Positions 20,901 to 42,587 of a stretch of DNA of 64,000 nt are shown here, piece after piece. The position numbers were made by a program, and so were the translations under genes. The stretch covers positions 434,001-498,000 of the forward strand of contig JAKBEU010000001.1 in the NCBI GenBank assembly GCA_021833625.1. The letters run 5' to 3'. This DNA comes from a bacterium. GTDB lineage: Bacteria > Patescibacteriota > Microgenomatia > UBA1406 > GWC2-37-13. Positions within the stretch are counted from its first letter, which is position 1; every line of letters begins with the position of its first letter. Below the pieces are notes generated by a model. That model did not search any database, was not told where the DNA came from, and was given only the letters and a program-made list of their open reading frames with translations.

Positions 20901-23900
20901 GCTTTGTATACAACAACTGGGGAACAAACTATATCCGAGGAGAAGAAACCTTAAGCTATCTCGCCTGGAACGGTACAGAAAACTACAATTTTGTCGACAG
21001 TCTTATCAAGGCTGACAAGGGCACCCTTTCGTTTTGGTTCCGTCCTGAGTGGCGGGCCTCTGCTCCGACTTCCGATCTTTATCTTTTCCAGGTTCCCAAT
21101 GTAATCCAGGTCTTTTATCAGGCATCTGACGACAAGATATACGCTCAAATGTACAACGGAACAAACTGGACAACTGTCTCAGTAGCGTCAGCCGCCCAAA
21201 CATTTGCGGCGCTTTCGGATCATTATATTTCGGTACGTTGGGATAACACATCCGGACTCATACTTAATCTTGACGGAACTGAGACATCCCTTCCCACCAC
21301 ATGGACTTCACAGGAACAGCAGATTACCAGCACTACAAACCTTTATATCGGTTCCAAGTCAACCGCAGCAAATCGTGCGGACGGACTTATTTCAGACTTA
21401 GCTATATTTAACAGAAGCTTGCAAAAATATGAAGTAGCGCAAATATATAATAACAAAGCCCCAATTGAAGATTTTGCCCGGAATGACTTGGTGCAGTTGC
21501 AACAGGCAAACAACCAGACATATCAGCGCGGATATATCCGCCTTACGGGAGATGTGACTGCGGGAGGAGCGGTAAGCGCGGGAACCGTTTCAACCACCTA
21601 TTTGTCTGGTAATTATGTCGGCACAAATAACGCGGCAAATTTCTCAAATCATACGGTTCTTCATCTTCCGTTCCAGGGAACAATCGACGGCAGCCGCCAG
21701 GAGGTAGGAACCTTTACCCGTCCCGATTCCGTCAGCCCAGCCGCAACGGTCACGAATGAAAACACCCATCAACTCACGAATAAAAATGCAAATGAACCGC
21801 GACTTGGAAGGGGATTATATGCAAGCGATGCAAATCAGGACTACCAATACAATACGGGCAATTTTGGAGTCACTATTGAAGACTCACGTAAAAATCTTGC
21901 TCTTGACTCCTCATTCGAAACTCTTACCCCATGGGTCAGCGGTGCGAGTTTGACTGCGACACAAACAACGATGAAGGCGATTCATGGAACATATGGAGTC
22001 AATCTTGTCGCAACAGCGAATACGCGCTATTTCCAGACGCTCGACCTCACAACCATTACTGCAGGCACCACTGTTCAACTGTCAACCTATGTATATCGAA
22101 ACGATACAAACTCATGGGGCGGCACTATAGATACATCAGTTGCTCAATTATATGCACGAACCGATGACGCTATCACCGCACTTACCCCCACTTATATCCC
22201 ACTTGGAAACGGGTGGTATCAAATGATTGCAAGCTTTACTTCAACAGCAGCCTCAAACTGGGATGTGGGAGTCTATATTCCCTCCGGAAAAAATATCATT
22301 GTCGATGGATTCCAGGCTGAAGTAGAGGGAGACGGTACCTCCGCATATTACCCATCTTCCTATATCCCCACCACAACATCTTCAGTCATCCGTGCTCCAG
22401 AAAAACTGTCCTATCCACTTCCCACCTCTTTTAAGTCTGATAAGGGTGGTTTTTCATTCTGGTTTAAACCGATGTGGGCAAGAAATACAACCGGAGACAA
22501 CACAAACAAATACTTCATCTATATCCCCAATGTTATGCGCGTAAGTCTTGACGGGACAAACGACAGATTCCTCGTCGAACAGTATAACGGTGCTTCATGG
22601 GTGGCAACAGCAAATACAGGAACCGGTACCGTAAACCAGTATCAATGGAATCATCTTGCCTGCGGATGGTATTACAACTTGAACTATTGTCGCCTTAACG
22701 GATCCGCATATTCATCAAGCGCTGTATGGACTCCTCAACCGACGGCAGGTAAAATATTATATGTCGGATCTGATGATACGGGCGCAAATCAGGCAAACTC
22801 TCTCATAGCGGGCTTCACCCTTTTTGACGTTTATTTGAACCCAACTCAACAATATCAACTCTATCTTAACCGCGGAAAATTTGACGATTATTTCCGCACC
22901 GACACTATCAGCCTGTCCGACATAACTTCAACCGCCAGTCAAAGCGGAAGCTTAAACATTACCGGTGTCTATCGAGGAGGAATGGGAAGTCAAACAGCTC
23001 CTGCCTTCAGTTTTGGCGTTGACACCAATACGGGACTCTTTTCATCAACCCCTGACACTTTAAATTTTACAACCGGAGGAACTGAGGCTTTGAGAATCGA
23101 TTCGACCGGCAACATCGGTATTGGCAACACAGCACCTGGTGCCAAGCTTGACATTGGAAAAGCAGGATCTACTCTTGGCACCCTCCGCCTTGAGGGAGAT
23201 ACTTCAGGATATACACAGATACAACCTGCCACCAATGCAGGAAACTGGACGCTTACTCTCCCTCCAAATGCCGGGACAAGCGGATATATATTAACAACGG
23301 ACGGGAGCGGAACAACTTCCTGGTCTGCTTCGGTTCCCGCCTCCTCCGTTCCCTTCTCGGGTATCACCTCAGGAACAAATACCACCGCTGCAATGGTGGT
23401 CGGAACTGGTGCATCGCTTACCTATTCGGGAACGGGAACTATCAATGCATCAAGTTTAATTGGAGGAACATGGGCAGTGCCTGGCGCGATCGGAGGAACA
23501 ACGGCAAATACCGGAGCTTTCACAACACTCTCCTCCACCTCCGGAACAAATCTCGCAACTTCAACAGGAAATGTAGGAATAGGGACAGCTTCACCATCAC
23601 AAAAACTACAGGTCGCCGGAACTGCATTAATCGAAAACCTTAACCTTGGAACAACTCCCGTAGCAGGGGCGAGACTAACATCTTATGGGCAAGTAAATAT
23701 TATTGGTGATACGTCTTTAGTTTGGAATAATGCACATATTTATTTGAACGATGTAAATACCGGTGAGAATTACGCATTTGGAAACAGAGGTAATTATTTC
23801 TCATTTTCTTCCGAAACCGCTCCACATAATGCAATTCGAATGGTCATCGTTGCAGCAACCGGAAACGTCGGTATCGGAACTGTCGCTCCCGCAGCTAAAC

Positions 23901-26900
23901 TGGATATTTTAGGTGATCTTAACGTCAGTACCTACGCAACCGTAGGGGCTTCGCTTGCACTTGGCACATCTACCGCTACTCCGGGAGCAGGAAACTTAAA
24001 TATGAGTGGGAATCTCAATCTTTCCGGTGCGTTTATGCCGGGCGGAAATGCCGGAACCGCTGGATATTTCCTCACCTCCTCCGGTGCAGGTACTGCGCCT
24101 AGCTGGACCACAACCGTTGGAGCCTCAAGCGTTCCCTTCTCCGGCATTACCTCAGGAACAAATACCACCGCTGCGATGGTGGTGGGAGCTGGCGGATCAC
24201 TGAACTACACTTCAACGGGAACAATTAATGCATCAAGTTTAATTGGCGGCACATGGGCGGCACCTGGCGCAATCGGAGGAACAACGGCAAACACAGGTAA
24301 ATTCACAACTCTTGAAGCAACAAGCACAGGAAATGCACTTACCCTCTCTGGAGCGGGAGCAAATATTGCATTCTCCGGAGCAGGACTTGCACAGATAACA
24401 ACGGCAACCAATCAACACCTTGCACTCATGCCCGCAGGAACGGGAAATGTGGGGATTGGGACAACAAGTCCTAACGGAAAACTGCAAGTTGCAGCCGATT
24501 TAAATTCTGCTATCAGAATAAGTAATGCGGCAGGTACCGGGAACATTCTTAATATTTCGGGAAATAATACGGTTGATACGACTTCACCAAGCATACGAAG
24601 TGACGGCGCCAGTCTTGTTCTTAATGGAGCTACTGGAGGAAACCTATACTTCAATCTCGATGCCAGCGCAAATAGTATTTTTTCAAATAATGTGGGGATT
24701 GGGGTAACCCCAACAGCTAAGCTTGACGTTTTAGGAAATCTTAACGTCAGTACATACGCAACCGCAGGAGCCTCGTTAGCCTTAGGAACTTCTTCTGCCT
24801 CGGCAGGTGCAGGAAATCTTGACATGTCAGGAGACTTGACTCTTTCCGGTGCCTTCAAACCGGCAGGAAATGCGGGAACAGCGGGATATTTCCTGACCTC
24901 TGCCGGCACAGGGAGTGCGCCCACCTGGACATCGACAGTCGGGGCATCAAGTGTTCCTTTCTCCGGAATCACCGGTCCATCTACTAATACGACAGCTGCA
25001 ATGACTGTTGGGTCAGGAGCTTCACTTAATTACACAGGAACGGGAACAATAAACGCATCAACATTAATCGGTGGAACATGGGCAGTGCCTGGCGCAATCG
25101 GGACGACAACACCAAACACCGGTAAGTTTACTTCGATTTGGGGAACATCTTTTGGAGTCGGATATGATCCGTCTACCATTACAGGAGGAGTTGCTGCGTT
25201 TAACGGAAATGTCGGCATTGGAACAATAAGTCCTGCTGCAAAACTTGATATTCTCGGCAACCTCAATGTCAGTTCATACGCAACAGTTGCCGCTTCCCTT
25301 GCACTTGGCACATCAAATGCTGCGGCAGGAGCGGGAAATCTTGATATGTCAGGAAACCTTACCATTGCAGGGGCGATAAAACCGGGAGGTAATGCGGGAA
25401 CAAGCGGCTACATCCTCACTTCAGGAGGTGGAGGAGTAAATACGTGGACCGATCCGTTGGCGCTTACCGGAGGATCAAACCTCTGGCAAAGAACACTTAG
25501 TAGCCTTGCTCCAATAAATATAACGGACGCACTCAATTTGGGATCAACTGCAACAGCAAGCGCTCTCGTTCATCTCCCGGGGACAAATAATCAGAATGCA
25601 TGGTTTAACTTGGGTACGGGAAATTTGGGAGTAGGAACGGCGACTCCATCAGCGCTATTAAGTATTGGGTCAATAAATATTACCTCAAATCCCCAAATTG
25701 CCATCGGCACCAATCTAGCTGAAAGCAATTATGCAATTTCCGTTTCGGGAGGACGAACAATGTTTGGGTACGACCAAGTGGACGGAGCATCCGTCATTAA
25801 CAGCGGAGGATCAAAAGGATTTAAGCTTATGGTAAATGGAACCGATAATTCATGGCTTTCGGGAACACAAGCGCTCACAGTTTTAAGCAATGGAAACGTC
25901 GGAATCGGTGTCACCAACCCGACAAGCAAACTTGAAATAGCGGGAACATCCTCCACAATCAGTAATGCAAGCGGAGATATCACATTTAGCGCAGCATCAG
26001 GGAATATAGCTTTTTCAAACAATAATCTGACAAATATCACGAACATAAGCACATTAGGACAAATTCAGATTGGTCAGTTTGCTTCCGCCCCGGTCGCGCT
26101 TGGCGCCGGATCTCTCTATTACAACTCAACGGGAGGAAAAGTATATTATAACAACGGAACCGCATGGGTAGAGATAGGAGCTTCTTTCTGGCAACAGACG
26201 CTCGGCAGCCTTGCACCCACAAATGTTACGAACGATATAAATACCGGAAGTACCGCAACAGCAAGTGCTCTTGTCCACCTCCCGGGGACAACCAATCACA
26301 ACGCATGGCTCAATCTTGGCACGGGGAATGTCGGCATTGGGACCGCTACTCCGACAGGTGCAAAATTGCAGGTCAATGGAAGTATTATGGCTGATGAACT
26401 TATTGACACGACGGGCGCCGGAGCATATTATGTTGACCCTGCCGGAAGCTCTTCACTTGGAGGAAACGTCATCATTGCAAGCACCTATGGTGTAGATACA
26501 ACAGCCGCAGGAACACTCTATTTGGGAAACACCAATTCCTCAATAATCGGAATTGGTACCAGTGCAACGGCCCGGACAATCACAATGGGAAATTCAACGG
26601 GTGCAACAGCGCTCTCACTTAACTCCGGAACAGGAGGTATCGCCCTTAACTCAACCGACGTCATAAATCTTACTTCGTCAAAAGCCGCAGGGGCAGGTAT
26701 CACGGAAGCATTCTCCCTGAAGACCAGTACTGATCTGGGAGCGACAGACGAACTGTTCCAATTAGGCGATTCTTTAGCCAACATGATAACGGTGTTGGGA
26801 AATGGATATGTCGGAATCGGAACCAGCACCCCGGGAGTACAACTGCAGGTACATGAGCCCGGAACCGGCAACAGTCAGCTAACCGTTTCAACCGATTCTG

Positions 26901-29368
26901 ATACCAATAATTCTATTCTCGCTTTCACGACTGATGCAAATGGAGTGGCCCCAAAAGATGCCCGCATCGGACTTGACGCCGCAAACGGCGTTCTCAAAAT
27001 AGTATACGGAAGTCCGTTTGCCGCCTCAACCAACGGACTTGTCATCAACTCTTCCGGCAATATCGGCATCGGAACAGTGAGTCCTCTGGATCAGGTAGAA
27101 ATTGCAAATACCACAGCAGGAGGAAGAATGATAATAAGCAATGGCGCCGGAGCAACACGCAAAGCGCTTTTGTTCCAGGCTCCGGGCGGAACATACAGCT
27201 ATGCACGAATAGTTGCCCAAGATTATGGAACATCAACGGGACTGAACCTGGCCCTTCAGGATACGGGAGGAAATGTCGGTATCGGCACAACAACCCCAAC
27301 AGCTGCAAAATTGCAGGTGGTGGGAACCGTTATGGCCGATCAGTTCACCGATACAACAGGGTCAGGCGCCTATTATGTGAACCCAGCAGGAACCTCGGTT
27401 CTCGGAGGCAATATTGAAATGCGCTCCGCAACCCCATCAATACTCGGATACGACAGCTCAACGGCAACATATTACACACTTCATTTTAAAGGAAACAGCG
27501 GCGATACGACCGCTTCCATTTCCGTAGATGGAGCAACCTCAGGAAGTGGAAAGATTGATGTTGGTACGGTGGACCCTCCTTATACAATTGATGGAAAAAA
27601 ATATGCAACCTATCAGCCTTCTATGACGGGAGTGAAGGAGGAAACGACAGGAGTTGTCCGCCTTACTCAGAAAAACAGTCAATTACAGGCGTATATATAT
27701 ACTATTAACTTCAATAATCAAACGGAAGGATCCGACCTGTGGCTTTTCAACAAAACCGCAAATTTGAAACAGAATATAAAAGATATGACTGTTCTGCTTT
27801 CTTCCGCATCAAACGGAAAGACGTGGTACAGTGTCGATAAAGATAATCAGCAATTAACATTCTTCTCTTCTTCCCCGACGGAAATTTCTTATCGTCTCAC
27901 TGCTCCACGGTTTGATTCTTCTACTTGGAAAAACGAAAGAGATGCAAGTGACCCCAGTATTGGATTTGTCATCAACAGCGATGGAACCGTCAACACGACA
28001 TCTTCAACTCAAGTCGCCTACACTGCTCCACAGCTTACAAAGGATGCAAACAACACCTTTGTACTCGTTGGTGATTTCATTGATGAGTTCATAAATGTTA
28101 ATAAAGCACTTATTGCAAATATCAAGTCGGGATTTATCCAAGCAGAAGATGTTGTTATCAACAACACACTTACTGCACGCGAAACGATATCTTCTTCCCT
28201 CACTGCATCTGTCGCACGAATCGAAACCCTTATCATTTCAAAGAAGATAAATGCTCCGGTCGTTGAAACTGTAGACCTTAAGGCTTCCGGAAGCTCTGAA
28301 CTTTCCTCTATCTCGACGAATACGGTGAAACCTATTGGGAATGATGTAACTGTTGACCTCTCAAAAAATTCTTCTCCTTCCGGATCACTTGCCCGTCTTG
28401 TCATTAATGGACTTGATAATGCACCGGTTGCCCAGTTTGATGCTGCGGGTAATGCGACTCTTGCAGGCACTCTTGTTGCGGATCAGGTTGTTGCTTCCTC
28501 CTCCGCTTTCGGTTCCTCATCAATTGCGCAATTGAAAACAGACAACGCATCCGTTTCAGGAACCCTTATTGCTAAAGAAGTACAGGCAGACAATATCAAC
28601 AACTCCCTACAGCAGTTCAGTTCCTCCATAAATAACGTTCAACAACAGCTTGCCGCATTACAAAACGCACCCCTTCCCAATGCTCAGCACTACCAGAAAC
28701 TGGATGATTCAATCATCGGAAATATAACCATTACCGACACGGCAAATATATATAAAGCGACGATTTCTGACTCACTTATGGTGGGGTCTGTTCTTGTCGA
28801 ACAAAATTCTCTCCTTGCACTCTCTACCGATTTGAAAATATCATCCCTTTCTACCATTCACCTGTTTGATGACGCGGTGGTTATTGCAAAAAACGGAACA
28901 GTCGCAATAAAAGGGGAAGTATCTGCTTCTTCCCTTGCTATTAAGAATGTCGAAGGGGCAACAGTCGCATCAATTGATGCCTCCGGTTCGGCACATTTTA
29001 ACGAGGTAGTTGCAAAAAAATTCACGCTCGACAAAATAGCAACGAACGGAGCGGTTATTGCTGATTCCGGAATGAGAAATGCACAGAACGAGCCCATTCC
29101 CGCCATCAAAACAAATACGGAAGTTGCCGGAACCGGCTCGGTTCCACAGGATGCAAAAGAAGTTATTATTTATAACGACAATGTAACTGAAAATTCACTT
29201 ATTTATCTCACACCTACCGCAGACAATGTTCAAAATCAACTTTCTGTGACAAAAAAGACAACATGCGCCGCAAATACGACACAAACTACCTGTACCCCTT
29301 ACTTTGTTATCTCGTCAAATAGCGCCATTCACCCTGAAGTTCCGTTTAACTGGCTTATCATTAATTGA
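17987..29368 (+). CDS. Giant membrane-tethered fibre protein (3,793 aa) with NVGIG repeats and LamG-like domains
   Basis: Residues 1-75 are helical and cytoplasmic, with a look of a recombinase core-binding domain (YLAKLSAKKYGHAE, then TSFIEWLSKENKVSKEDA). A single transmembrane helix follows (about 83-103). The exterior starts with a FQGRLTDSLGNPI domain. Sixteen copies of a motif G-N-[VIL]-G-[IV]-G-x(2,3)-P-x-x-K-L-x-[IV]-x-G run from about residue 323 to 3110. Two LamG-like regions, each with an upstream carbohydrate-binding-like part, lie at about 745-1162 and 1223-1635. The C-terminal 600 residues are β-repetitive with a short coiled coil (NNSLQQFSSSINNVQQQLAALQ) near 3540. The NVGIG repeats resemble phage tail-fibre shafts. 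No sortase signal, C-terminal membrane helix or S74 chaperone motif is seen. Probably a surface adhesin or fibre. Confidence 0.9.
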   Translation: MKYITNNTITAYLAKLSAKKYGHAELVKKVLTVTSFIEWLSKENKVSKEDAKRFSEQLLKITHTYPVTKPPLNNLSSKAKLPLRYVGYILIALTVSILGAGIYNRFFLKVKTPLAYSTTPIQAGRTISFQGRLTDSLGNPITAPIDITYNFYTTSTGGSPITGSTRICTANGDVDGVFSSLIGNDVGPSCNTELPASIFTENPTVYLGVKVGSELSEMSPRQQIANVGYAINSETLQGMPPGQSTSSVPFINKDGDLLVAVSNPGIRSTFASANFTISSAQATTIQSAGSGDITLSATQGGALRFNTYYGTLGERMTILANGNVGIGNITPSMALDIVGSATTSGNLSSGGQVKLGELTAAPTSLGAGSLYYNSTTAKVYYNNGTVWTEVGAGAAGSDLFQRTLGSLAPMNITDAINTGAIATGSALVHLPGTINQDAWFNLGTGNVGVGTNNPTSKLQVVGGDILVDSSKGISSVGQDLIFRANTSTQVLRLLSNWTSAWSDDQGTDFFQFGQNNGMFSGFNGATLNRFAIVSNGTKITNENPSTATPPIGMLDVEGSGGVILNAGNVGIGNIAPGAKLDVTGNLNVSTYATMGASLALGTSTATPGTGNLDMSGNLTVAGAIKPGGNAGTNGYVLTSSGGSVNTWIDPAVLVATNGYWQRTLGSLAPMNITDDLNMGAIATGSAIVHLPGLTDQNAWFNLGLGNLGIGTISPDAKLAIVGDGQGAVFKLSQGYVDLPIATKLSSTVMSDLLLHLPLQNSLASSRSNYPTFTRSDTSNGNTSTYTTDAGWITNAYVYTNVARFEKTNISHGVFVENSRRNLMDYSSFEEGSTTGWTASGLETNTVSSIYRKHGTYSATVGDTNGTGGTFVRSRTLTSGQTYPFFCYVQNTTAGALRGTVDTSVAQLYAGASTITTSYTPLDGGWYKLEGVVTGTGGAVGYGVNIGINKQIQLDACQIEADASSNGVPYSTSFVYNNWGTNYIRGEETLSYLAWNGTENYNFVDSLIKADKGTLSFWFRPEWRASAPTSDLYLFQVPNVIQVFYQASDDKIYAQMYNGTNWTTVSVASAAQTFAALSDHYISVRWDNTSGLILNLDGTETSLPTTWTSQEQQITSTTNLYIGSKSTAANRADGLISDLAIFNRSLQKYEVAQIYNNKAPIEDFARNDLVQLQQANNQTYQRGYIRLTGDVTAGGAVSAGTVSTTYLSGNYVGTNNAANFSNHTVLHLPFQGTIDGSRQEVGTFTRPDSVSPAATVTNENTHQLTNKNANEPRLGRGLYASDANQDYQYNTGNFGVTIEDSRKNLALDSSFETLTPWVSGASLTATQTTMKAIHGTYGVNLVATANTRYFQTLDLTTITAGTTVQLSTYVYRNDTNSWGGTIDTSVAQLYARTDDAITALTPTYIPLGNGWYQMIASFTSTAASNWDVGVYIPSGKNIIVDGFQAEVEGDGTSAYYPSSYIPTTTSSVIRAPEKLSYPLPTSFKSDKGGFSFWFKPMWARNTTGDNTNKYFIYIPNVMRVSLDGTNDRFLVEQYNGASWVATANTGTGTVNQYQWNHLACGWYYNLNYCRLNGSAYSSSAVWTPQPTAGKILYVGSDDTGANQANSLIAGFTLFDVYLNPTQQYQLYLNRGKFDDYFRTDTISLSDITSTASQSGSLNITGVYRGGMGSQTAPAFSFGVDTNTGLFSSTPDTLNFTTGGTEALRIDSTGNIGIGNTAPGAKLDIGKAGSTLGTLRLEGDTSGYTQIQPATNAGNWTLTLPPNAGTSGYILTTDGSGTTSWSASVPASSVPFSGITSGTNTTAAMVVGTGASLTYSGTGTINASSLIGGTWAVPGAIGGTTANTGAFTTLSSTSGTNLATSTGNVGIGTASPSQKLQVAGTALIENLNLGTTPVAGARLTSYGQVNIIGDTSLVWNNAHIYLNDVNTGENYAFGNRGNYFSFSSETAPHNAIRMVIVAATGNVGIGTVAPAAKLDILGDLNVSTYATVGASLALGTSTATPGAGNLNMSGNLNLSGAFMPGGNAGTAGYFLTSSGAGTAPSWTTTVGASSVPFSGITSGTNTTAAMVVGAGGSLNYTSTGTINASSLIGGTWAAPGAIGGTTANTGKFTTLEATSTGNALTLSGAGANIAFSGAGLAQITTATNQHLALMPAGTGNVGIGTTSPNGKLQVAADLNSAIRISNAAGTGNILNISGNNTVDTTSPSIRSDGASLVLNGATGGNLYFNLDASANSIFSNNVGIGVTPTAKLDVLGNLNVSTYATAGASLALGTSSASAGAGNLDMSGDLTLSGAFKPAGNAGTAGYFLTSAGTGSAPTWTSTVGASSVPFSGITGPSTNTTAAMTVGSGASLNYTGTGTINASTLIGGTWAVPGAIGTTTPNTGKFTSIWGTSFGVGYDPSTITGGVAAFNGNVGIGTISPAAKLDILGNLNVSSYATVAASLALGTSNAAAGAGNLDMSGNLTIAGAIKPGGNAGTSGYILTSGGGGVNTWTDPLALTGGSNLWQRTLSSLAPINITDALNLGSTATASALVHLPGTNNQNAWFNLGTGNLGVGTATPSALLSIGSINITSNPQIAIGTNLAESNYAISVSGGRTMFGYDQVDGASVINSGGSKGFKLMVNGTDNSWLSGTQALTVLSNGNVGIGVTNPTSKLEIAGTSSTISNASGDITFSAASGNIAFSNNNLTNITNISTLGQIQIGQFASAPVALGAGSLYYNSTGGKVYYNNGTAWVEIGASFWQQTLGSLAPTNVTNDINTGSTATASALVHLPGTTNHNAWLNLGTGNVGIGTATPTGAKLQVNGSIMADELIDTTGAGAYYVDPAGSSSLGGNVIIASTYGVDTTAAGTLYLGNTNSSIIGIGTSATARTITMGNSTGATALSLNSGTGGIALNSTDVINLTSSKAAGAGITEAFSLKTSTDLGATDELFQLGDSLANMITVLGNGYVGIGTSTPGVQLQVHEPGTGNSQLTVSTDSDTNNSILAFTTDANGVAPKDARIGLDAANGVLKIVYGSPFAASTNGLVINSSGNIGIGTVSPLDQVEIANTTAGGRMIISNGAGATRKALLFQAPGGTYSYARIVAQDYGTSTGLNLALQDTGGNVGIGTTTPTAAKLQVVGTVMADQFTDTTGSGAYYVNPAGTSVLGGNIEMRSATPSILGYDSSTATYYTLHFKGNSGDTTASISVDGATSGSGKIDVGTVDPPYTIDGKKYATYQPSMTGVKEETTGVVRLTQKNSQLQAYIYTINFNNQTEGSDLWLFNKTANLKQNIKDMTVLLSSASNGKTWYSVDKDNQQLTFFSSSPTEISYRLTAPRFDSSTWKNERDASDPSIGFVINSDGTVNTTSSTQVAYTAPQLTKDANNTFVLVGDFIDEFINVNKALIANIKSGFIQAEDVVINNTLTARETISSSLTASVARIETLIISKKINAPVVETVDLKASGSSELSSISTNTVKPIGNDVTVDLSKNSSPSGSLARLVINGLDNAPVAQFDAAGNATLAGTLVADQVVASSSAFGSSSIAQLKTDNASVSGTLIAKEVQADNINNSLQQFSSSINNVQQQLAALQNAPLPNAQHYQKLDDSIIGNITITDTANIYKATISDSLMVGSVLVEQNSLLALSTDLKISSLSTIHLFDDAVVIAKNGTVAIKGEVSASSLAIKNVEGATVASIDASGSAHFNEVVAKKFTLDKIATNGAVIADSGMRNAQNEPIPAIKTNTEVAGTGSVPQDAKEVIIYNDNVTENSLIYLTPTADNVQNQLSVTKKTTCAANTTQTTCTPYFVISSNSAIHPEVPFNWLIIN
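18952..27325 (+). repeat. Protein-level repeat array inside the giant fibre gene
   Basis: Besides the 16 NVGIG motifs, three longer modules recur. Q (QRTLGSLAPMNIT... LVHLPG... AWFNLGTGN) occurs four times, starting near 19184, 19966, 25483 and 26188. R (NLNVSTYAT... SLALGTS... GNLDMSGNL) occurs four times, near 19740, 23910, 24740 and 25257. S (VPFSGIT... TNTTAAM... TINAS.LIGGTWA.PGAIG) occurs three times, near 23350, 24130 and 24955. DNA of the copies differs at many synonymous sites, so the duplications are old and the protein sequence is kept. Confidence 0.8.
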
Positions 29369-32515: not shown

Positions 32516-33217
32516 ATGGCAGGAAAGAAACGAAGAGGGGTAACACTTGTCGAGATACTTATCGTCGTTATTCTTCTGGTTATTCTGGCAATCGGAGCAC
32601 TCATTCTTCTTAATCCGGGAAAGCAGATAGCAAAAGCAACCGATATACGGAAAAAAACCGATTTGGAGGTGTTCAAAAAGGCACTGGAGGATTTTTATAA
32701 CGACAAAGGATGTTATCCCACCCTTTCACAGGTGTGTTATACCGGAGGAAATCAGATTGCCAATTTTACCAGCGGAGTCAAGTGTTATATCTGTGGAGAC
32801 GTTTCCACCTCCCCCAGCCTTTCGCCCTATATGCAAAAACTTATCTGCGATCCGGACTATCCTCATAAACACTATATGTATGCGGTCGACAACCCACAAA
32901 ATACCATCAATCCTTCTTGTCCAAAAACGTATAAAGTATATTCCGATCTTGATCAGTCCGGCGACCCCGACAGTATTACACTTGGATGTGGAGATGGAGG
33001 GTGCGGATTTGCTCCCGATTATGGATATGATTATGGTGTGTCAAGTCCCGACACCGACCTGAAAACCACGCCGTTTTTTTTCTGTCTAACCCGGTCTGAT
33101 ACATGCGACAACTGTAACACATTTGTGGAATGCAGAACAGAGCCTTCCTGCACGACAATTTATGCAACGCAAGATCTTTGCTGCAAAATCCTTCCTAAGC
33201 CAAAAGGATGCTTCTAA
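32516..33217 (+). CDS. Type IV pilin/pseudopilin-like protein, cysteine-rich
   Basis: 233 residues with a class III prepilin signal KKRRG/VTLVEILIVVILL: cleavage after Gly8, Glu at mature position 5, and Val instead of Phe or Met at position 1. A hydrophobic helix to about residue 31 is followed by KQIAKATDIRKKTDLEVFKKALEDFY and a globular part with 18 or so cysteines, many paired (CYIC, CDNCNTFVEC, CC), so a disulfide-rich head is likely. It would need a prepilin peptidase encoded elsewhere. It lies 82 bp before the second giant gene and may assemble with it or with a DNA-uptake pilus. Confidence 0.82.
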   Translation: MAGKKRRGVTLVEILIVVILLVILAIGALILLNPGKQIAKATDIRKKTDLEVFKKALEDFYNDKGCYPTLSQVCYTGGNQIANFTSGVKCYICGDVSTSPSLSPYMQKLICDPDYPHKHYMYAVDNPQNTINPSCPKTYKVYSDLDQSGDPDSITLGCGDGGCGFAPDYGYDYGVSSPDTDLKTTPFFFCLTRSDTCDNCNTFVECRTEPSCTTIYATQDLCCKILPKPKGCF

Positions 33218-33299
33218 AAACGCCTATTCCCTACCCCAAACCCCCTCAGTATTTGTTACACTTAAAATAGGTTTGTTTATTTCACTATTTTTGTGCCAG

Positions 33300-36200
33300 A
33301 TGAGAACTGTTTTGCATTATAAAAAAAGGCGGCAAGTACACAAAAAAAAATCTTTTTTTGGTATCCCTTTTTTTGTATATTTGGCAGTGGGAGTCATCCT
33401 CATTCTTGGCTTTATTTTTATCCGTCCCCAAAAAAACAAACTTGCGTTTCACCGACAACTGTTCGGGCCTTGGCAATACACCGGAGAAATACCGGGAGTC
33501 ATGAAAACCTCCCTTGGCAACGACAAAAATCAAGTGATGGTGAAAGTTGAACGCGGTGACTCTTCGCTGCAGTTTAACGTCCCTCTTTCAAATACGAGTG
33601 AAACGAATAAAAATCAAACCATCATATTTTCAGAAAAGACAAAGACAATTGATACTTCCTACAAACTAACAAATGAAGGAATTAAAGAAGAAATCACGCT
33701 CTATAAAATCCCTCAGGAGAATGTCTTTAAAAATACAATTACGACTAATAATCTCATCGCAAAAATCAGTTCGGAAGGTGTTCCTGTTTTTTTTGATACA
33801 AAAGGAGTGTACCAATTTCATTTTTCACGTCCGTTTGTGAGAGATGCGGCAGGAAATATTAGTTATGCGGTCTCTTATACCATCGGACAGACGCCCGATC
33901 CGTTTCATAACACAAACGGAAAAGAGTCAACAAAACAGCTCCTTTCGGCAACAAAAGAAGTGTCTCAGGACCAGAACTATACCATTTCCGTCACGGTTGA
34001 CTCTGCCTGGCTCCATGATCCAAAGCGCAAACTCCCCATTGTCATAGACCCGACGGTCGTGCATGATACCAGTAGTGAGTTTGCAAGCGGAAACCTGAAT
34101 AGAGTGTCCGATACCGGCTCAGAGACATCTCCAAAGCTTGAAGGCTACTACCAAGAGCTCTCTTCGGATGTCAATACTGTTGCCCTGTGGCATATGAATG
34201 AAGGGAGCGGAGATATTCAAGATTCATCCGGAAATGCAAATGTCGGAAGTCCAACCGGTACGACAGTTGTTACAGGACCTCTTGGAAACGCAAGAGGGTT
34301 TAATGGAACTAGTAGCGACTACATTACTGTCAACCCCACCGCAGTTACATCGGGCAGCTATACGGTTGAATTGTGGGTACAGCCAAATTCCTACACAGGA
34401 GGAGTAAGTGGTAATCCTGAAATAATAAGCACTCGAACTGGTTCAGATTTTAGTTTTGACATGCAGCTCACCTCATCTTCAATTCATCAGGACATTGGAA
34501 ATGGAAGCAGTTGGATCACTACCTCGGCAGACGTAAGTACGATAATTCCTCTCAATTCCTGGTCACACATCGCTACGGTAGTCACCAACATAGGATGGGC
34601 AACCTACGTAAATGGAACTCTTGCAGGAAGCGGAAAATATTATTCGAGCTCTTTTCCACTACTGTCTGATTCAACGCATAAAATCATGTTTGGAACGGTT
34701 AACGGCACAACGAACTTTTTGAACGGTTCTATTGACGAAGTCCGGATCAGCAACGTTGCCCGCTCGTCTGAAGAAATCCAAATGGATGCCTCCCGGCGTC
34801 CTTACTCTACCTACACCTCTCCTGTTATTGATCTTGTAAAACCGGTTGTCTCATGGAACAATTTTTCCTGGACAAGTCTCGGCGAAGGCACGGGAAACGG
34901 CGAAGTTGCAACTTCATCGGCAACCGCAAACATGGTCACTCAATGGAATTTTAATGAAACGTCCGGAACAACAGCAGTATCCGGCGGTACCTGTGGCACT
35001 ACATGCAATGGAACCCTCACAGGCTTTGCAAGTACGGGATCTCAAGACAGCGCCGTTGGTACGGGGTGGACCGCTGCAAACCGTAGGTGGGGTGCCGGAG
35101 CCCTTATGTTTGATGGGGCAGGCGAATATGTAAGCGCTCCTGACAATGCAAGTCTCAGTCTTCCTGGAGATATTACTGTAACCTCATGGATATTTATGCC
35201 GGCAGCACAAATATCAGGCGCCGCCATAGTAACCAAAGGCAACGGCGGGGGCGGTGAATCGTGGAATATGGATGTGGTCAGCGGAAACAGCATTCGATTT
35301 ATGAGAAGATACAACAGCGGTGCTGCATTTACCAGCGCAACAGCTCCAAACGTCAGCTATGGTCAATGGCATTACGTTGCAGGAGTTACTACCAGTGGAC
35401 AGACGGATATTTATATCGACGGAAAGAAGACGGCCGGAAATACTACCGCTACCCCGTTTGACGTAAACACACATGTTGTTTCTATAGGTTCTCGACAGTC
35501 GGGAAGTACAACGTATGACATGAATTTTAACGGCGTCATAGATTCTACGGCCGTTTTTTCACGCGCGCTTACTGCATCCGAAATTTTAAGTAACTACAAT
35601 GCTTCCAAAATTGAATTCCAAACCCGAGTCGGTACAAGTGCTAATCCAAATGACGGCACCTGGGAAGCGTGGAAACCTTCCGCAACAGAACAGGTGATCG
35701 ATTCTATGGACACTTCCTCGGATAAGTGGGCTATCGACAATAGTCAGAATTATCCATCGGCACTGGCAAAAACAGGAATTGTTAATGTGGGAACCGGAGG
35801 AGACGGAGCCTGTACTGTTTCGTCTGGAACAACAAACCTCAATACGGGAAGCTGTAGCGGACGGGGAACGGCAGATGCAGTCAATTTTTCCTCTACCGTG
35901 CTTACTTCAATCGGAACAACCTCAATTACACTTTCTACGTCCCCCACGGGACTGACTGCGGGAGACGAGGTCCTCATTATTAATCTGCAAGGAACCATGG
36001 CCGACTACGATAATGTCGGGCAATACGAGACACATACCATTTCCTCCATCAGTACAAACACGTTGAACTTTACTGATAGTCCCATACAAAACACGTTTGA
36101 TGGGACGACACAAAAAATAATGGTACAAAGAATACCGAATTACACGAACGTAACTGTTTCTGCCGGGGCAATCCTCACGGCTTCTGCGTGGAATAGTGCA

Positions 36201-39200
36201 AAAGGAGGAACCCTTTTCTTCAGGGCAAACGGAACGGTAACGAATGGAGGAACTATCTCAATGAACGGTTCCGGATTTGTCGGCGGGAGTCCGGGAGGAA
36301 ATTCTATTGGGACGGATAACTGTTTACTTGATGGAACAAGTGCAAATGGACGGGCTGGAGAGTCCTTTGGAGGAGCAACCACAACGCCATCTTGTACGGG
36401 TGCAACCAGAAGAAGCAATCTGGGAGGGGGGAGCGGTGGAGCCGGATATGCCACATGGTATACACCCTACTCAGTGGAAGGAGGCTCTGGTGGAAGTTAC
36501 GGAACTCTGGGTACTGCCGGAACCGGGGATAGTGCAACAGGTACTCCGGGAACCGTATATGGAAACAACAATAATATATTTCTTGGCTCTGGAGGAGGAA
36601 GCGCCGGAGGATGGACGGGAGGAACTGCCCATGTGGGAGGATTGGGAGGCACCGGCGGAGGGATTATCTCCATTTCATCTAATACCCTCACGAATAACGG
36701 CTCAATTACTGCAAACGGTAACCGGGGCCTTAACAGTAACGCCGATGTAGGAGGAAATGGAGCCGCGGGGGGTGGAGGATCGGGAGGAACAATAGTTCTC
36801 AATGCAAATACCCTTACCGTTGGATCAGGAAAAGTTATTGCTTTGGGAGGAATTACATCTCAACAGTCGGTACAATGCGGAGGAACCTCTCCACGATGCG
36901 GAGGGCATGGTGGAACGGGACGGATCGCGCTTTCTTACTCCAGCGCGATTTCCGGAGTTACCTCCCCTACTGCCATCATACAAAAATTGCAGCCGCAGGT
37001 AAAACAGGAGGGCACAGGCGCCGTACAAGTTTCCACCGGTCGAATTGATACTGATTCAAGTACCGTTGGCCTTTGGCATCTAGATGAGACCTCAGGAACT
37101 GGAGCATATTTAAGAAATAGTAGTTCATCAGACGCCTCTATTTTCTTATATACCGGTGCCGATCAGACATTTACCGTCCCCTCAGATGTCACCTCAATAA
37201 ATATCAAAATGTGGGGGGGTGGAGGCGGAGGAGGAAATCCGGGAGGATGGACATACGGATATCCCGGTGGAGGGGGTGGATACACAATGGGGACACTTGC
37301 CGTCACTCCGGGACAGGTATTGACCGTTATGGTGGGCGCAGGAGGAACTAATGGAAGCATTGTCGACACGGTCGCAAGCTATGGAGGAGGAGGACCTGCT
37401 TGTGCAAGTAACACCGATTGTCGTTACGGCGGTCAAGGAGGAGGAAGATCTGCCATACGTTATAGCAGTACCGATCTCATTACCGCTGGTGGAGGCGGAG
37501 GAGGCGGAGCCACTTATTTAACAGACAGTAATAATTCTGGAGGAGGCGCAGGAGGAGCAACCGGAGCAACGGGAAGCTCTGCAACCAATGCCGCTTCCGG
37601 TGGAGGGGGTGGAAGTCAAACCGCGGGAGGAATTGCAGGTACTGGAAGCGCATCAGGAGCAACTGCCGGAACACAATATGCCGGAGGTTATGCTACCGCG
37701 GGTTCATATGGAGGAGGAGGTGGAGGTGGTTGGTACGGAGGTGGAGGCGGAGCCTACAACGTCGATACTATCTCTCATATGGGTGGAGGCGGAGGAGGCT
37801 CGAGTTATGTGGGAGGTACGGGAGTAAGCAGTGCCTATACACTTGTGGCAAGCGGAACAATACAAGGAAATAGTTCTGATCCTGTCAATAACGGTGCCGG
37901 AGCAGGCGGTGCCACTTCTACAAATGGCGCGAACGGAAAAGTTGTTATCTCTTACAACAGTTTTGTTGCAGCTAATAATGGAACACCTACCGGAACGACG
38001 GTTGTTGATGGTATTTCGGGCAAAGCAAGAAGTTTTAATGGAACCACCGATTATATTGACTTAGGAAATCCAAACTCACTTCAAACAACTGGGAATCAAA
38101 CAATAGAAATGTGGCTGAAACCCGCTGCCCTTGACGCACGAAGGAATCCCTACAGTAAATCATACGGCGGTGAAGGTACTATTACACTCGAAATCAACGG
38201 TACCCTTAGCTACTTCTATGGAACGAATGGAAACGATGGATTGCCGTATCAAGGTTTTAACACGGGTGTCCCCATTCCCGCTGGTCAATGGTCACACATT
38301 GCAATCGTCCGTAATTTAACGACGATGGAATTGCAGTGGTATATTAACGGTGTTTTGGTAAACCGAGTAGATGCAACATATAGTTATGCCGCAACAAGCA
38401 CACAACATGCATATATTGGAAAAGGATACGTCAGTCCGTTTTTGGGAAGTATTGATGAAGTAAGAATCAGCAGCAGTGCCCGGACTCCTGATGAAATCGC
38501 ACAGAGCTATCAGATGGGACGCGATCACAGAATTTCAAAAACAATTACACTAACCGACCTTTCCGCATCCAACAAAGTCCCCTTCTCTATTGCTTCAGAC
38601 CGACTTGGCACCTTTTCTCAGGTTACTATTGGTAAATCCGCATTTACTAATTATGAATCGGACCCAAATACCGTAAGATTATGGCATCTGGATGAAGATC
38701 AAAATCCCATGCCCGCCTACTTCGATTATGACAGCTTTGAAGGAGGTCCTGGCAGTTCAGATGATTGGCAACTCCGCAACACCGTTGATCCTGACATCAC
38801 CAGTACTACTGCATACACCGGAACAAAATCTTTACATATGTCTGCCGGATGGGGAAGAAATTTTGAAGGCACTTCAGGAGAACCTTCAACCGGTCCCTAC
38901 GATACAGCCACATATCCATATATGTGTATGGCATATAAAATTCCATCAACCACCCTGAATAACATGCTCATCTTGGTAGATGGAGCGTGGCACTCAGTGA
39001 CTATGACTCAAGGAGAAACCCCAACTTCATACTCTAAAGTAGCCTCATGGAACCCTCTTATTGCGAATAACGCGTGGCATTATAAATGTATCAATTTAAA
39101 TACTCAGCTGAATGCCTCGTTAGGCGGTACAACTCATAGCATTTCAGCAGTCATCTGGCACGACGGCGGTGGAATGGGGGTCATTGCCGGAGAATTTTGG

Positions 39201-42200
39201 ATTGATGATTTTCTCATAGCCGCACAAACGTACTATCCTACACTCAACTATCCTAAAGACTCCAGCGGAAATACTCCTGATTCTCAACAGGCACCAATTG
39301 TTGCAACCGGCGGCACTATTTCCCACGTAAATGGGTACACTATACATTCTTTTACAGCTACAGGAACCTTTCAGGTCACAAGCGGGAACGGTATTGTTGA
39401 TGCTCTTGTTGTCGCTGGTGGTGGAGGAGGAGCAAATACAGGATCTGGAGGTGGAGGTGGTGGGTTTGTTCAGGGACACGTTCCCATCACAACAGGATCT
39501 TACACAATTACTGTTGGAGCTGGAGGAAGCGGAGGCCTTACCACCGCTGCTCCTGGCGTTAAGGGAGGCAACTCCGTATTTTCTACCGTCACGGCAGAAG
39601 GAGGAGGAAACGGTGTTTCTCATGGAGGCAACATTGGTGGAAGCGGTGGAAGCGGAGGTGGAGGTTCAATCAGTACCTCTGGAACTGCTGCAGCAGGAGG
39701 AACCGGTTCACAAGGAAGTGCGGGTGGTGCCGGATACGTTGAAGCATCTTGGATTGGAAACAGCGGTGGTGGAGGAGGAGCAGCAACCGTAGGTGCGGCC
39801 GGCGGTAACACGGCCGGGACCGGAAACGGAGGAACAGGACTACAGAACTCTTTTACGGGTACTTCTACTTATTATGCTGGTGGAGGAGGAGCAGGTGAAG
39901 TAAGTGGAAGTTTCGTCGGAGCCGGTGGTACTGGAGGCGGAGGAGGAGCGACAGTTGATGCTGCAGGCACCTCAGGAACCGCCAATACCGGAGGTGGAGG
40001 TGGTGGAGGCTCATACAATGCTGGCGTCTATACCAATGGAGGAAACGGGGGTTCGGGTATTGTAATAATCCGCTATCCGGACCAGGCCCCCACCATTCAT
40101 GCGACGTCCATTGGCACAACATCAGTCCCCGGGATAATGGGCAAAGCCCGATCATTTAATGGGGCGGGCGACTATATCAATGCCGGATCTGGCGTTAATC
40201 TTGTCGGCACATCTTTTACTCTTTCCGCCTGGGCAAAGGTAGGGGCAACAAGCGTAATTAATCCCATTCTAAGTCAAGGACTATCTTCGACCACTAATAA
40301 TTTGCTCCAAATGGGATTTAGGGCTACAAACGTGTTTTATTGCGGATTCTATGCAAACGACACGGACACCACTATAACTTATACCGATACCAATTGGCAC
40401 TTATGGACGTGTACTTACGACGTTTCAACAAATGCAAGAAAAATATATCGGGATGGTATTTTGCAAGCCTCAGGTACTGCCGCTGCAGGCTATACAGGAA
40501 CAGGAGATTTTTTTATAGGAAACTATTACAACACTTACTACTTCAATGGTTCAATTGACGAGGTGCGAGTCGATAAAGTAGTACGCTCGCAAGATGAAAT
40601 TCGCCAGACATATGAAATAGGAGCAAGAACACAAAGTATTACCATAGATTTTAAGGCAAAACTCAACTCCAGCAATCTTATCAGCGGTTCCTCGGACTAC
40701 AGCTTTGCAATAGATGAGAGACCCTATGGTTCCTCCCTCGCGGCAAGTCATATTTTCCCGGGAGAAAAAATCATCGTCAAAGAGAACATTGATGGGGCCG
40801 ATTATATGGCTCAGGGACTTGTTACTAGTGTTGACAATATGGGCGGTGGAGTTTCCGTTCTTTCATGGGACGCCGGGTCCAGTTTCCCAACCGGAGGATA
40901 TGACGTCAACGCAACGGTATTTAAGTGGCAAAAAGAATACTTTGATATAAACGACTCTCTTTCCACTCAGCGAAGTGCCATTACCCGCCTTACCTACCGG
41001 ATAGTCGACGGCTCTCAAGGGGCAAACGTGTGGCTTGACGATCTTCGCTCCTCTACCAATTATCTCAATAACGGTTCGACTATCGCTTCTTCGGTCGGCA
41101 ATCGTTACTTCCAATATCGTGCAATCCTTTCACAGGATGACATAACAGCTCCTTCTTCAGCACTCGCAACACTCACCCTTAACTACGCAAACAGCGCCCC
41201 CCCCAACCTTCCTACCCTTGACACGCCAGCAGATGCAGCAACAGGTGTCGCTCTTCTTCCTGTTTTAAGAACCACGGCAACCGACCCGGATTCCGATGCC
41301 GTAAAATACAAAATAGCCCTTTGTGCGGACGCGGCAATGACGGTCAATTGTCAAACATTCGATCAAACTACTCCCGCAACAGGATGGTCAGCGTCCTCTT
41401 ATGCGTCAGGTGTTCAGGGTGTTTACACGCTGCAGACTCCTCTTAATCCGAATACTACCTATTACTGGAAATCCCAGGCAATTGATCCGTCAGGTTCCAA
41501 CACATGGAGCGCAACACAGGTGACCCCATACTCATTTACGACAAACACTCCTGCCGGTACTCCAACGCTTGACTCCCCCATAAATACCGCAACGGGCGTC
41601 CCGGTTACCGCAGTACTCAAAACCACGGCAACGGACCCACAGGGCGACGCATTAAAGTACAAAATTAATGTTTGTACGGACTCAGGAATGTCAGTCGGCT
41701 GCCAGACATTTGATCAGACTCTTTCAACAATAGGATGGTCAGCGTCCTCTTATGCGTCAGGTGTTCAGGGTGTTTACACGCTGCAGACTGCCCTCAATCC
41801 CAATACTGTTTACTATTGGAAATCACTTGCGATTGATCCGTCAGGCTCCAACACATGGAGCGCAACACAGGTGACCCCATACTCATTTACGACTAATAGG
41901 GTTGCAGCCACTCCAACGCTTGACTCCCCTTCAACTGCCTCAATAAATATTGCTACCTCAGGAGCCATCCTAAAAACCACAACCACTGACCCGGAAAGCG
42001 ATACTCTTCTTTATAAAATCAACCTCTGCTCTGATTCAGGAATGACTCTTAACTGTCAGATATTCGATCAAACAACATCAACTGCGGGATGGTCAGCGTC
42101 CTCTTATGCGTCAGGTGTTCAGGGTGTTTACACGCTGCAGACTCCTCTTAATCCGAATACTACCTATTACTGGGAATCCCAGGCAATTGATCCGTCAGGC

Positions 42201-42587
42201 TCCAACACATGGAGCGCAACACAGGCAACAGCATATTCTTTTACGACAGTAAATTACGCCATGGCAACCGGATGTAAAGTAGAGCACACTGCTCCCACAA
42301 CGTTTGTCATCAGCTGGATTGATAATTCCACTCAGGAAACAGGATATTCGCTGCAAAGAAGTACCAACGGAGGCTCTACTTGGAACAGCTTTCAACCCTC
42401 ACTTATCCCGGGCACCGTCACTTATACCGACTCACCGATAAGCCTGAATACCAACTACCAATATCGGGTCGCCCCTTACTTTGCCGACGGCTCGTTTGCC
42501 CCATGGTGTTACACGTCAACAATCAATATAGGATCCGGAACGTTCAACATGAACGGAATAAATCTCAACGGTATTAAGATAAATTAA
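33300..42587 (+). CDS. Giant membrane-tethered surface protein (3,095 aa) with LamG, glycine-rich and Fn3-like modules
   Basis: Start ATG 33300 gives a short basic cytoplasmic tail, a transmembrane helix (about residues 18-41) and a huge exterior; the frame is open upstream to 33123, but that would overlap the pilin gene. Order: an N-terminal β domain ending in LPIVIDPTV, LamG-like domains near 290-487 and 544-767, a glycine-rich stretch near 947-1227, two further LamG folds each interrupted by a glycine-rich domain (about 1253-1737 and 1790-2440), a β region, three near-identical Fn3-like repeats (about 2636-2985) and a final Fn3-like domain. The glycine-rich parts (WYGGGGGA, GGGGGSSYVGG, NGKVVISY) resemble the ALK-type glycine-rich domain built of polyglycine-II helices. 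Likely an adhesin that binds glycans or a host surface. Confidence 0.88.
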   Translation: MRTVLHYKKRRQVHKKKSFFGIPFFVYLAVGVILILGFIFIRPQKNKLAFHRQLFGPWQYTGEIPGVMKTSLGNDKNQVMVKVERGDSSLQFNVPLSNTSETNKNQTIIFSEKTKTIDTSYKLTNEGIKEEITLYKIPQENVFKNTITTNNLIAKISSEGVPVFFDTKGVYQFHFSRPFVRDAAGNISYAVSYTIGQTPDPFHNTNGKESTKQLLSATKEVSQDQNYTISVTVDSAWLHDPKRKLPIVIDPTVVHDTSSEFASGNLNRVSDTGSETSPKLEGYYQELSSDVNTVALWHMNEGSGDIQDSSGNANVGSPTGTTVVTGPLGNARGFNGTSSDYITVNPTAVTSGSYTVELWVQPNSYTGGVSGNPEIISTRTGSDFSFDMQLTSSSIHQDIGNGSSWITTSADVSTIIPLNSWSHIATVVTNIGWATYVNGTLAGSGKYYSSSFPLLSDSTHKIMFGTVNGTTNFLNGSIDEVRISNVARSSEEIQMDASRRPYSTYTSPVIDLVKPVVSWNNFSWTSLGEGTGNGEVATSSATANMVTQWNFNETSGTTAVSGGTCGTTCNGTLTGFASTGSQDSAVGTGWTAANRRWGAGALMFDGAGEYVSAPDNASLSLPGDITVTSWIFMPAAQISGAAIVTKGNGGGGESWNMDVVSGNSIRFMRRYNSGAAFTSATAPNVSYGQWHYVAGVTTSGQTDIYIDGKKTAGNTTATPFDVNTHVVSIGSRQSGSTTYDMNFNGVIDSTAVFSRALTASEILSNYNASKIEFQTRVGTSANPNDGTWEAWKPSATEQVIDSMDTSSDKWAIDNSQNYPSALAKTGIVNVGTGGDGACTVSSGTTNLNTGSCSGRGTADAVNFSSTVLTSIGTTSITLSTSPTGLTAGDEVLIINLQGTMADYDNVGQYETHTISSISTNTLNFTDSPIQNTFDGTTQKIMVQRIPNYTNVTVSAGAILTASAWNSAKGGTLFFRANGTVTNGGTISMNGSGFVGGSPGGNSIGTDNCLLDGTSANGRAGESFGGATTTPSCTGATRRSNLGGGSGGAGYATWYTPYSVEGGSGGSYGTLGTAGTGDSATGTPGTVYGNNNNIFLGSGGGSAGGWTGGTAHVGGLGGTGGGIISISSNTLTNNGSITANGNRGLNSNADVGGNGAAGGGGSGGTIVLNANTLTVGSGKVIALGGITSQQSVQCGGTSPRCGGHGGTGRIALSYSSAISGVTSPTAIIQKLQPQVKQEGTGAVQVSTGRIDTDSSTVGLWHLDETSGTGAYLRNSSSSDASIFLYTGADQTFTVPSDVTSINIKMWGGGGGGGNPGGWTYGYPGGGGGYTMGTLAVTPGQVLTVMVGAGGTNGSIVDTVASYGGGGPACASNTDCRYGGQGGGRSAIRYSSTDLITAGGGGGGGATYLTDSNNSGGGAGGATGATGSSATNAASGGGGGSQTAGGIAGTGSASGATAGTQYAGGYATAGSYGGGGGGGWYGGGGGAYNVDTISHMGGGGGGSSYVGGTGVSSAYTLVASGTIQGNSSDPVNNGAGAGGATSTNGANGKVVISYNSFVAANNGTPTGTTVVDGISGKARSFNGTTDYIDLGNPNSLQTTGNQTIEMWLKPAALDARRNPYSKSYGGEGTITLEINGTLSYFYGTNGNDGLPYQGFNTGVPIPAGQWSHIAIVRNLTTMELQWYINGVLVNRVDATYSYAATSTQHAYIGKGYVSPFLGSIDEVRISSSARTPDEIAQSYQMGRDHRISKTITLTDLSASNKVPFSIASDRLGTFSQVTIGKSAFTNYESDPNTVRLWHLDEDQNPMPAYFDYDSFEGGPGSSDDWQLRNTVDPDITSTTAYTGTKSLHMSAGWGRNFEGTSGEPSTGPYDTATYPYMCMAYKIPSTTLNNMLILVDGAWHSVTMTQGETPTSYSKVASWNPLIANNAWHYKCINLNTQLNASLGGTTHSISAVIWHDGGGMGVIAGEFWIDDFLIAAQTYYPTLNYPKDSSGNTPDSQQAPIVATGGTISHVNGYTIHSFTATGTFQVTSGNGIVDALVVAGGGGGANTGSGGGGGGFVQGHVPITTGSYTITVGAGGSGGLTTAAPGVKGGNSVFSTVTAEGGGNGVSHGGNIGGSGGSGGGGSISTSGTAAAGGTGSQGSAGGAGYVEASWIGNSGGGGGAATVGAAGGNTAGTGNGGTGLQNSFTGTSTYYAGGGGAGEVSGSFVGAGGTGGGGGATVDAAGTSGTANTGGGGGGGSYNAGVYTNGGNGGSGIVIIRYPDQAPTIHATSIGTTSVPGIMGKARSFNGAGDYINAGSGVNLVGTSFTLSAWAKVGATSVINPILSQGLSSTTNNLLQMGFRATNVFYCGFYANDTDTTITYTDTNWHLWTCTYDVSTNARKIYRDGILQASGTAAAGYTGTGDFFIGNYYNTYYFNGSIDEVRVDKVVRSQDEIRQTYEIGARTQSITIDFKAKLNSSNLISGSSDYSFAIDERPYGSSLAASHIFPGEKIIVKENIDGADYMAQGLVTSVDNMGGGVSVLSWDAGSSFPTGGYDVNATVFKWQKEYFDINDSLSTQRSAITRLTYRIVDGSQGANVWLDDLRSSTNYLNNGSTIASSVGNRYFQYRAILSQDDITAPSSALATLTLNYANSAPPNLPTLDTPADAATGVALLPVLRTTATDPDSDAVKYKIALCADAAMTVNCQTFDQTTPATGWSASSYASGVQGVYTLQTPLNPNTTYYWKSQAIDPSGSNTWSATQVTPYSFTTNTPAGTPTLDSPINTATGVPVTAVLKTTATDPQGDALKYKINVCTDSGMSVGCQTFDQTLSTIGWSASSYASGVQGVYTLQTALNPNTVYYWKSLAIDPSGSNTWSATQVTPYSFTTNRVAATPTLDSPSTASINIATSGAILKTTTTDPESDTLLYKINLCSDSGMTLNCQIFDQTTSTAGWSASSYASGVQGVYTLQTPLNPNTTYYWESQAIDPSGSNTWSATQATAYSFTTVNYAMATGCKVEHTAPTTFVISWIDNSTQETGYSLQRSTNGGSTWNSFQPSLIPGTVTYTDSPISLNTNYQYRVAPYFADGSFAPWCYTSTINIGSGTFNMNGINLNGIKIN
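41206..42250 (+). repeat. Three tandem Fn3-like repeats with nearly identical DNA
   Basis: A 57-nt block beginning GGATGGTCAGCG is identical at 41382-41438, 41733-41789 and 42087-42143, giving periods of 351 and 354 bp (117 and 118 codons). Beyond the block, copies 1 and 3 stay nearly identical for about 80 nt, while copies 1 and 2 share the last 40 nt, a mosaic that suggests recent duplication plus gene conversion. Confidence 0.9.

Follow-up and report, generated by a model that had tools for sequence, protein, structure and literature searches.

Why should LamG domains of a bacterial surface protein be cut directly after their first strand by large glycine-rich domains, and do the separated pieces still form one fold? 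The question is raised by a giant surface protein encoded in a 64,000-nucleotide stretch of contig JAKBEU010000001.1 (hereafter the window), from the genome of an ultra-small Patescibacterium, of the class Microgenomatia judging by named relatives (1.1 Mb in 3 contigs, 99.56% complete). A Pfam scan of the protein detected four Laminin_G_3 (PF13385) stretches, all above the curated cut-off, here numbered LamG1 to LamG4. In LamG3 and LamG4 other domains (guests or, in the window, cargos) are nested in sequence between the first strand, S1, and the remainder of the domain, the core; in predicted models each LamG is one fold that includes the distant strand, and the same loop recurrently holds differing cargo in relatives. 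We consider it likely that LamG3 and LamG4 are split companion domains that display guests in an exchangeable slot, the guests probably binding ligands for host-cell attachment. The features of the protein are as follows.

33123-42587, plus strand: giant surface protein, an open frame of 3154 codons when counted from TTG
34173-34781, plus strand: LamG1, uncut (Laminin_G_3 match; 24 amino acids from S1 to core)
34929-35585, plus strand: LamG2, uncut (Laminin_G_3 match, S1 matrix)
35778-36932, plus strand: glycine-rich beta domain in another slot before LamG3 (23% glycine)
37059-37136, plus strand: LamG3 S1, first strand and loop, 'STVGLWHLDETSGTGAYLRNSSSSDA' (S1 matrix; predicted strand)
37137-37955, plus strand: cargo 1, glycine-rich domain (32% glycine; ALK_LTK_GRD and Gly_rich_2)
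37956-38519, plus strand: LamG3 core (Laminin_G_3; one fold with S1 in the model)
38667-38720, plus strand: LamG4 S1, 'NTVRLWHLDEDQNPMPA..' (S1 matrix; predicted strand)
38721-39218, plus strand: cargo 2A at sub-site A, about 166 amino acids, without family match
39249-39290, plus strand: LamG4 loop segment 'PKDSSGNTPDSQQ' between cargos 2A and 2B (from sequence)
39291-40079, plus strand: cargo 2B at sub-site B, glycine-rich domain (36% glycine; Gly_rich_2)
40080-40622, plus strand: LamG4 core (Laminin_G_3; one fold with S1 in the model)
40623-41198, plus strand: conserved C-terminal scaffold domain 'ITIDFKAKL..IIVKENIDG..', the probe for orthologues

In LamG1 and LamG2, S1 (W-H-M-N-E or W-N-F-N-E) stands at its usual position and, as the original prediction had noted of the earlier copy, the LamG1 opening 'WHMNEGSG' (34188) and its continuation 'GTTVVTGPLGNARGFNG' (34257) are contiguous. 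LamG3 and LamG4 are cut after the first strand 'WHLDE'. The predicted separation of opening and continuation was found in both: 'WHLDETSG' at 37074 is followed by 'GTTVVDGISGKARSFNG' only at 37992, and 'WHLDEDQ' at 38682 by 'GTTSVPGIMGKARSFNG' only at 40113. Insertion at the same place, also predicted, holds for the two glycine-rich cargos, which both follow 'K/RDSS..' or the equivalent 'RNSS' (sub-site B, after 'KDSS' or 'RNSS'), but not for the extra LamG4 domain, which occupies a second sub-site (A) just upstream, between 'WHLDEDQ' and 'YPKDSSGN'. An alignment with contiguous relatives runs across the cut, the cargo being the only large gap. A 14-column S1 matrix was built from contiguous LamGs of relatives. 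Of the 243,329 positions that do not immediately precede a LamG core, 21 reached at least 10 bits, and each of these, when inspected, had the appearance of a LamG first strand, mostly of a cut LamG. Since S1-like scores are this rare away from LamG, chance is excluded for LamG3 and LamG4 of the window, whose S1 score 43.3 and 25.2 bits. The Pfam model Laminin_G_3 begins after S1 and thus cannot decide whether S1 joins the fold.

Both split regions were therefore modelled with AlphaFold2, using an input alignment of cut and uncut relatives. Mean pLDDT (the model confidence score) was 63 and 65 for models 1 and 2, with the LamG core mostly at about 80-95, and S1 was predicted as a strand at residues 7-11 in both. 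In VIA-align comparisons with the LamG-like domain 4 of the arabinanase AbnA (PDB 5ho2, 641-846), model 1 aligned with Z 24.4 over 193 residues at 2.2 Å (model range 4 to 493) and model 2 with Z 23.2 over 186 residues at 2.3 Å (model range 4 to 656); a count shows that at least 10 aligned residues in model 1 and at least 12 in model 2 must precede the point where the guest ends. As the alignments start at model residue 4 and extend to the C-terminus, they include the distant strand in the LamG fold; the outcome named beforehand as speaking against nesting, a LamG complete without its distant N-terminal strand, was not what the models gave. LamG3 and LamG4 are thus each supported, by prediction, as one jelly roll including the distant first strand. 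The likeness to AbnA (PDB 5hon, 5ho2) covers the complete domain with its first strand, but the isolated AbnA domain (5hon, 206 residues) carries no guest. With an uncut LamG as query, phmmer retrieved nothing from the PDB, so that it is fold that connects these domains with AbnA. Fold matches to binding parts of clostridial toxins were set aside as the common LamG-like jelly roll. Of the structure foreseen in the original prediction, the single flanking jelly roll was obtained, and polyglycine-II helices were not resolved, pLDDT being about 30 over most of cargo 1; strands are predicted before and after the glycine-rich part of the cargos, while that part itself has low pLDDT.

What the cargos are differs between them. 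Cargo 1 exceeds the Pfam cut-off for ALK_LTK_GRD (PF12810; 1.5e-11, 45.2 bits against 24.5, with nearly the whole model covered) and for Gly_rich_2 (PF21722; 3.4e-7). Cargo 2B exceeds the cut-off for Gly_rich_2 (2.5e-23), the only family that the Pfam scan reported for it, with no match to ALK_LTK_GRD above cut-off. The designation 'ALK-type', given earlier to both inserts, is therefore apt for cargo 1 and not for cargo 2B, and the remark that such domains are best known from animal receptors applies to the Pfam match of cargo 1 only; both inserts resemble phage and bacterial glycine-rich domains. Both cargo 1 and the guest profile show a weak match to the tail fibre of phage Pam3 (E about 0.002). 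For cargo 2B the likeness is to glycine-rich proteins of phages, with 35-40% identity in BFVD matches, and to PHROG families. When phage records were searched by tblastn with the two glycine-rich cargos, no match appeared; this is uninformative, because the low-complexity filter strips glycine-rich sequence. The further β domain predicted in LamG4 does exist as an extra domain (38721-39218, cargo 2A), but its 'beta' label derives from sequence pattern only: cargo 2A matched nothing in Pfam, PHROG or the PDB, 281 genomes of the class yielded no relative, and its model is of low confidence (pLDDT mostly below 50).

Related giant proteins, gathered by searching the class and the phylum with two probes, the C-terminal domain and Gly_rich_2, came from Roizmanbacteria, Gottesmanbacteria, Pacebacteria and other Patescibacteria. 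Where S1 and core lie in one frame, 83 LamGs are uncut (20-54 amino acids from S1 to core) and 12 are cut (162-511 amino acids). Two further cut LamGs have a weaker S1 (LamG2 of L110 and the last LamG of L128), and in other cut cases one half lies past a contig end or gap (L032 LamG3, L033, L035, L117 and G038, the latter on L118-L120). At least 14 Patescibacteria genomes in all have inserts in this LamG loop, so that the nesting predicted for the window proved to be broader, a recurrent slot holding different domains. About eight unrelated kinds of guest were distinguished, namely two kinds of glycine-rich domain (GRD), a longer glycine-rich beta domain, PA14-like and fibrinogen-C-like domains and three unnamed ones, distributed as follows.

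Gly_rich_2 guest: L126 (twice), L128, L034 and L110 (Pfam)
Glycine-rich guest with the look of cargo 1: L033, which shares its genus with the window (by eye; a fragment without Pfam hit)
Long glycine-rich beta guest: L107 and L117
PA14-like guest: L032 (by eye; one weak PDB match, adhesin domain 6m8m, E 0.011)
Fibrinogen C guest: G038 (Pfam 5.7e-6; S1, then the domain start, at the end of L120)
Unnamed guest X: L031, L108 and L170
Unnamed guest Y: L110 and L128
Orphan guest 2A: LamG4 of the window only

The window and L033, although of one genus, thus hold different guests in the same slot. On a poorly resolved tree of the LamG4 core and C-terminal domain, guest state requires at least 10 changes and occupied versus empty 8; the starred branches of this scaffold tree alone force 3 changes for the state 'none'. 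The Y guests of L110 and L128 share 75% identity, their scaffolds 36.5%. The Gly_rich_2 guest of the window is 70% identical to that of L034 (in sub-site A) and 64% to that of L110 (in the LamG2 loop), with scaffolds at 41-45%, and with shared glycines left out these guest identities are 54% and 46%, respectively; glycine bias and uneven rates weaken this comparison. That guests are closer than scaffolds fits a movement of guests between slots and lineages, which would probably proceed by recombination, and suggests that the loop is an exchangeable slot for displaying host-binding parts. A wider proposition, that the loop between LamG strands 1 and 2 is such a slot throughout the phylum in giant Patescibacteria surface proteins, with guests of unrelated fold moving independently of the scaffold and setting which host cell each species binds, is put forward only tentatively.

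A plausible course of events can be outlined. The chain would form the first LamG strand, exit through the loop before the next strand, fold a whole guest and return to complete the jelly roll; in LamG4 two guests would be folded out of one loop. A guest tethered to the LamG at both ends would project sideways from a surface-anchored fibre. Those guests that are glycine-rich probably serve as tips for ligand binding, of the ALK and phage-tail-fibre type, in which a TNF-like sandwich carries glycine-rich loops. In orthologues the slot is empty or filled with unrelated guests, probably matching the partner cell of this likely episymbiont. Outward projection, ligand binding and adhesion to the host cell are what we infer from this arrangement.

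The nearest parallel is found in RTX adhesins. In the accounts given of FrhA, MpIBP and AhLap, a split domain contributes one N-terminal strand, followed by a ligand-binding domain and then the rest of the split domain, the binding site being directed away from the fibre (PMC10865825, PMC12077191). Here, too, a giant fibrous adhesin-like protein has a beta-sandwich that is cut after its first strand, lets a guest out and is then completed, and the guests include domains of the PA14/CBM type. By analogy, the LamGs may hold their guests sideways in the same way. Unlike in RTX adhesins, however, the split domain is a LamG and not Ig-like, there is a likely N-terminal membrane segment, the guests include ALK-type, Gly_rich_2 and fibrinogen C domains, LamG4 has two guests, and guests differ between orthologues; moreover, the Pfam scan of the whole protein found no RTX family at E up to 1. 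The LamG slot therefore works like the RTX split-domain unit but, having neither an Ig-like split domain nor RTX repeats, is not a member of that family. As to the guests, the Pam3 tail fibre gp24 (PDB 7yfw) ends in a TNF-like and glycine-rich tip that is thought to bind the receptor and is structurally related to ALK (PMC9608196). Cargo 1 shares with ALK/LTK and gp24 its score above the ALK_LTK_GRD cut-off, the plan described for these being a TNF-like sandwich leading into glycine-rich loops; it differs in lying inside a bacterial LamG loop without a kinase, its similarity to Pam3 is weak, and polyglycine helices are not resolved in its model. Patescibacterial surface proteins of very large size that contain fibrinogen C and concanavalin domains have been proposed as candidates for host recognition (PMC13059738). 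In the library searched, no paper describes a LamG with an inserted domain. New here are LamG as a split domain, glycine-rich guests of ALK and phage type, two guests in one LamG and an apparently exchangeable slot.

Several observations weigh against this interpretation. Guest binding, structure and localisation rest on prediction and analogy, and given the low confidence of the glycine-rich part of cargo 1 and of cargo 2A, guest folds, polyglycine-II helices and projection are putative. Codon use and GC content at third codon positions (GC3) of the cargos fit the rest of the gene without contrast and bear no mark of recent arrival, and apart from glycine codon repeats no DNA repeats flank the cargos that would explain a mechanism of exchange; a recent insertion is thus unsupported. 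In L170, LamG1 (reverse strand; residues about 486-824 of a 2438-amino-acid frame) is cut in another loop by a repeat array 'YYIWLQ..QIWTASMNTDGTGWS', likely a beta-propeller, so that the loop is preferred and not unique. Glycine-rich domains of Patescibacteria also occur outside LamG, and the slot is not their sole setting.

Display for adhesion is nevertheless the most likely role, and a purely structural one its main rival. Glycine-rich repeats can be structural, and the modules might stiffen, space or cross-link a surface fibre, nesting merely protecting their ends. That the same kind of module stands outside LamG, and with no known ligand, would suit such a function; but the slot also accepts PA14-like and fibrinogen-C-like domains, whose usual role is recognition, and split domains of RTX adhesins, as described, carry ligand-binding domains (PMC12077191), which makes a structural role unlikely in our view. 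It is still less probable that the guests are recently captured phage genes, glycine-rich tail-fibre tips without a settled role. The resemblance of cargo 2B to phage glycine-rich proteins and PHROG families, and of cargo 1 to the Pam3 fibre, points in that direction, but of the relatives collected, the one nearest to cargo 2B belongs to another Patescibacterium, the codon use of the cargos fits the gene, no clear case of a nested glycine-rich guest was seen in 78 viral loci with LamG, and the tblastn result, weak evidence with its filter on, adds no phage match. In the viral contigs L191 and L196, LamG and glycine-rich stretches stand in tandem, not nested.

We regard as very improbable that there is no nesting, the 'WHLDE' pieces being leftovers or linkers, the downstream cores complete and the glycine-rich domains in tandem. 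Laminin_G_3 does start at 'FNG' and gives the cores a full-length score without the first strand, and L116 has glycine-rich domains in tandem before an uncut LamG, yet both models place the strand in one LamG fold with AbnA domain 4, and the strand closely resembles that of contiguous relatives and, away from LamG cores, was found in cut LamGs only. An assembly or annotation artefact joining unrelated pieces can be practically dismissed, since despite contig ends, N runs or frame breaks inside the cargos of some relatives (L117, L118), the window has a single stop-free open frame in a nearly complete genome and independent genomes, 14 in all, agree on the arrangement.

Some neighbouring features deserve mention. 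A second slot lies before LamG3 (window 35661-37031), between 'WEAWKP..SMD' and '..EGTGS.KV', and measures 51 amino acids in L121. It contains the glycine-rich beta domain in the window, glycine-rich domains in L107 and L116, and whole LamGs in L113-L115 and L170. The window's domain (35778-36932), bounded by 'WEAWKP..' and '..KQEGTGAVQV', is of one kind with the LamG3 cargo of L107 and L117, to which it is 46-51% identical. In Woesearchaeota L044 a LamG core (residues about 1806-1999 of a 3814-amino-acid frame) has a weak first-strand match 190 amino acids upstream, possibly the same split arrangement in an archaeon. Upstream of the giant gene, on the same strand, a second giant frame (17987-29368, 3793 amino acids) has two weaker LamG matches. 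A pilin-like frame at 32516-33217, which carries a prokaryotic N-terminal methylation motif, has its end within the giant frame when the latter is read from TTG, an overlap that suggests a later start of the giant gene, near 33300; the ATG at 33300, directly before a likely transmembrane segment, is the more likely start. Read from the sequence, the N-terminus combines a basic stretch with a hydrophobic segment, the latter likely a membrane anchor.

Host recognition by Patescibacteria is described as largely unknown (PMC12206443). A LamG first strand flanking a nested guest provides a sequence rule for finding likely binding tips in giant, mostly unannotated surface proteins, comparable to what split domains offer in RTX adhesins, and the guests, being small and separable, can be produced and assayed. 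The arrangement also places glycine-rich domains of the ALK and phage-fibre types in a bacterial display scaffold.

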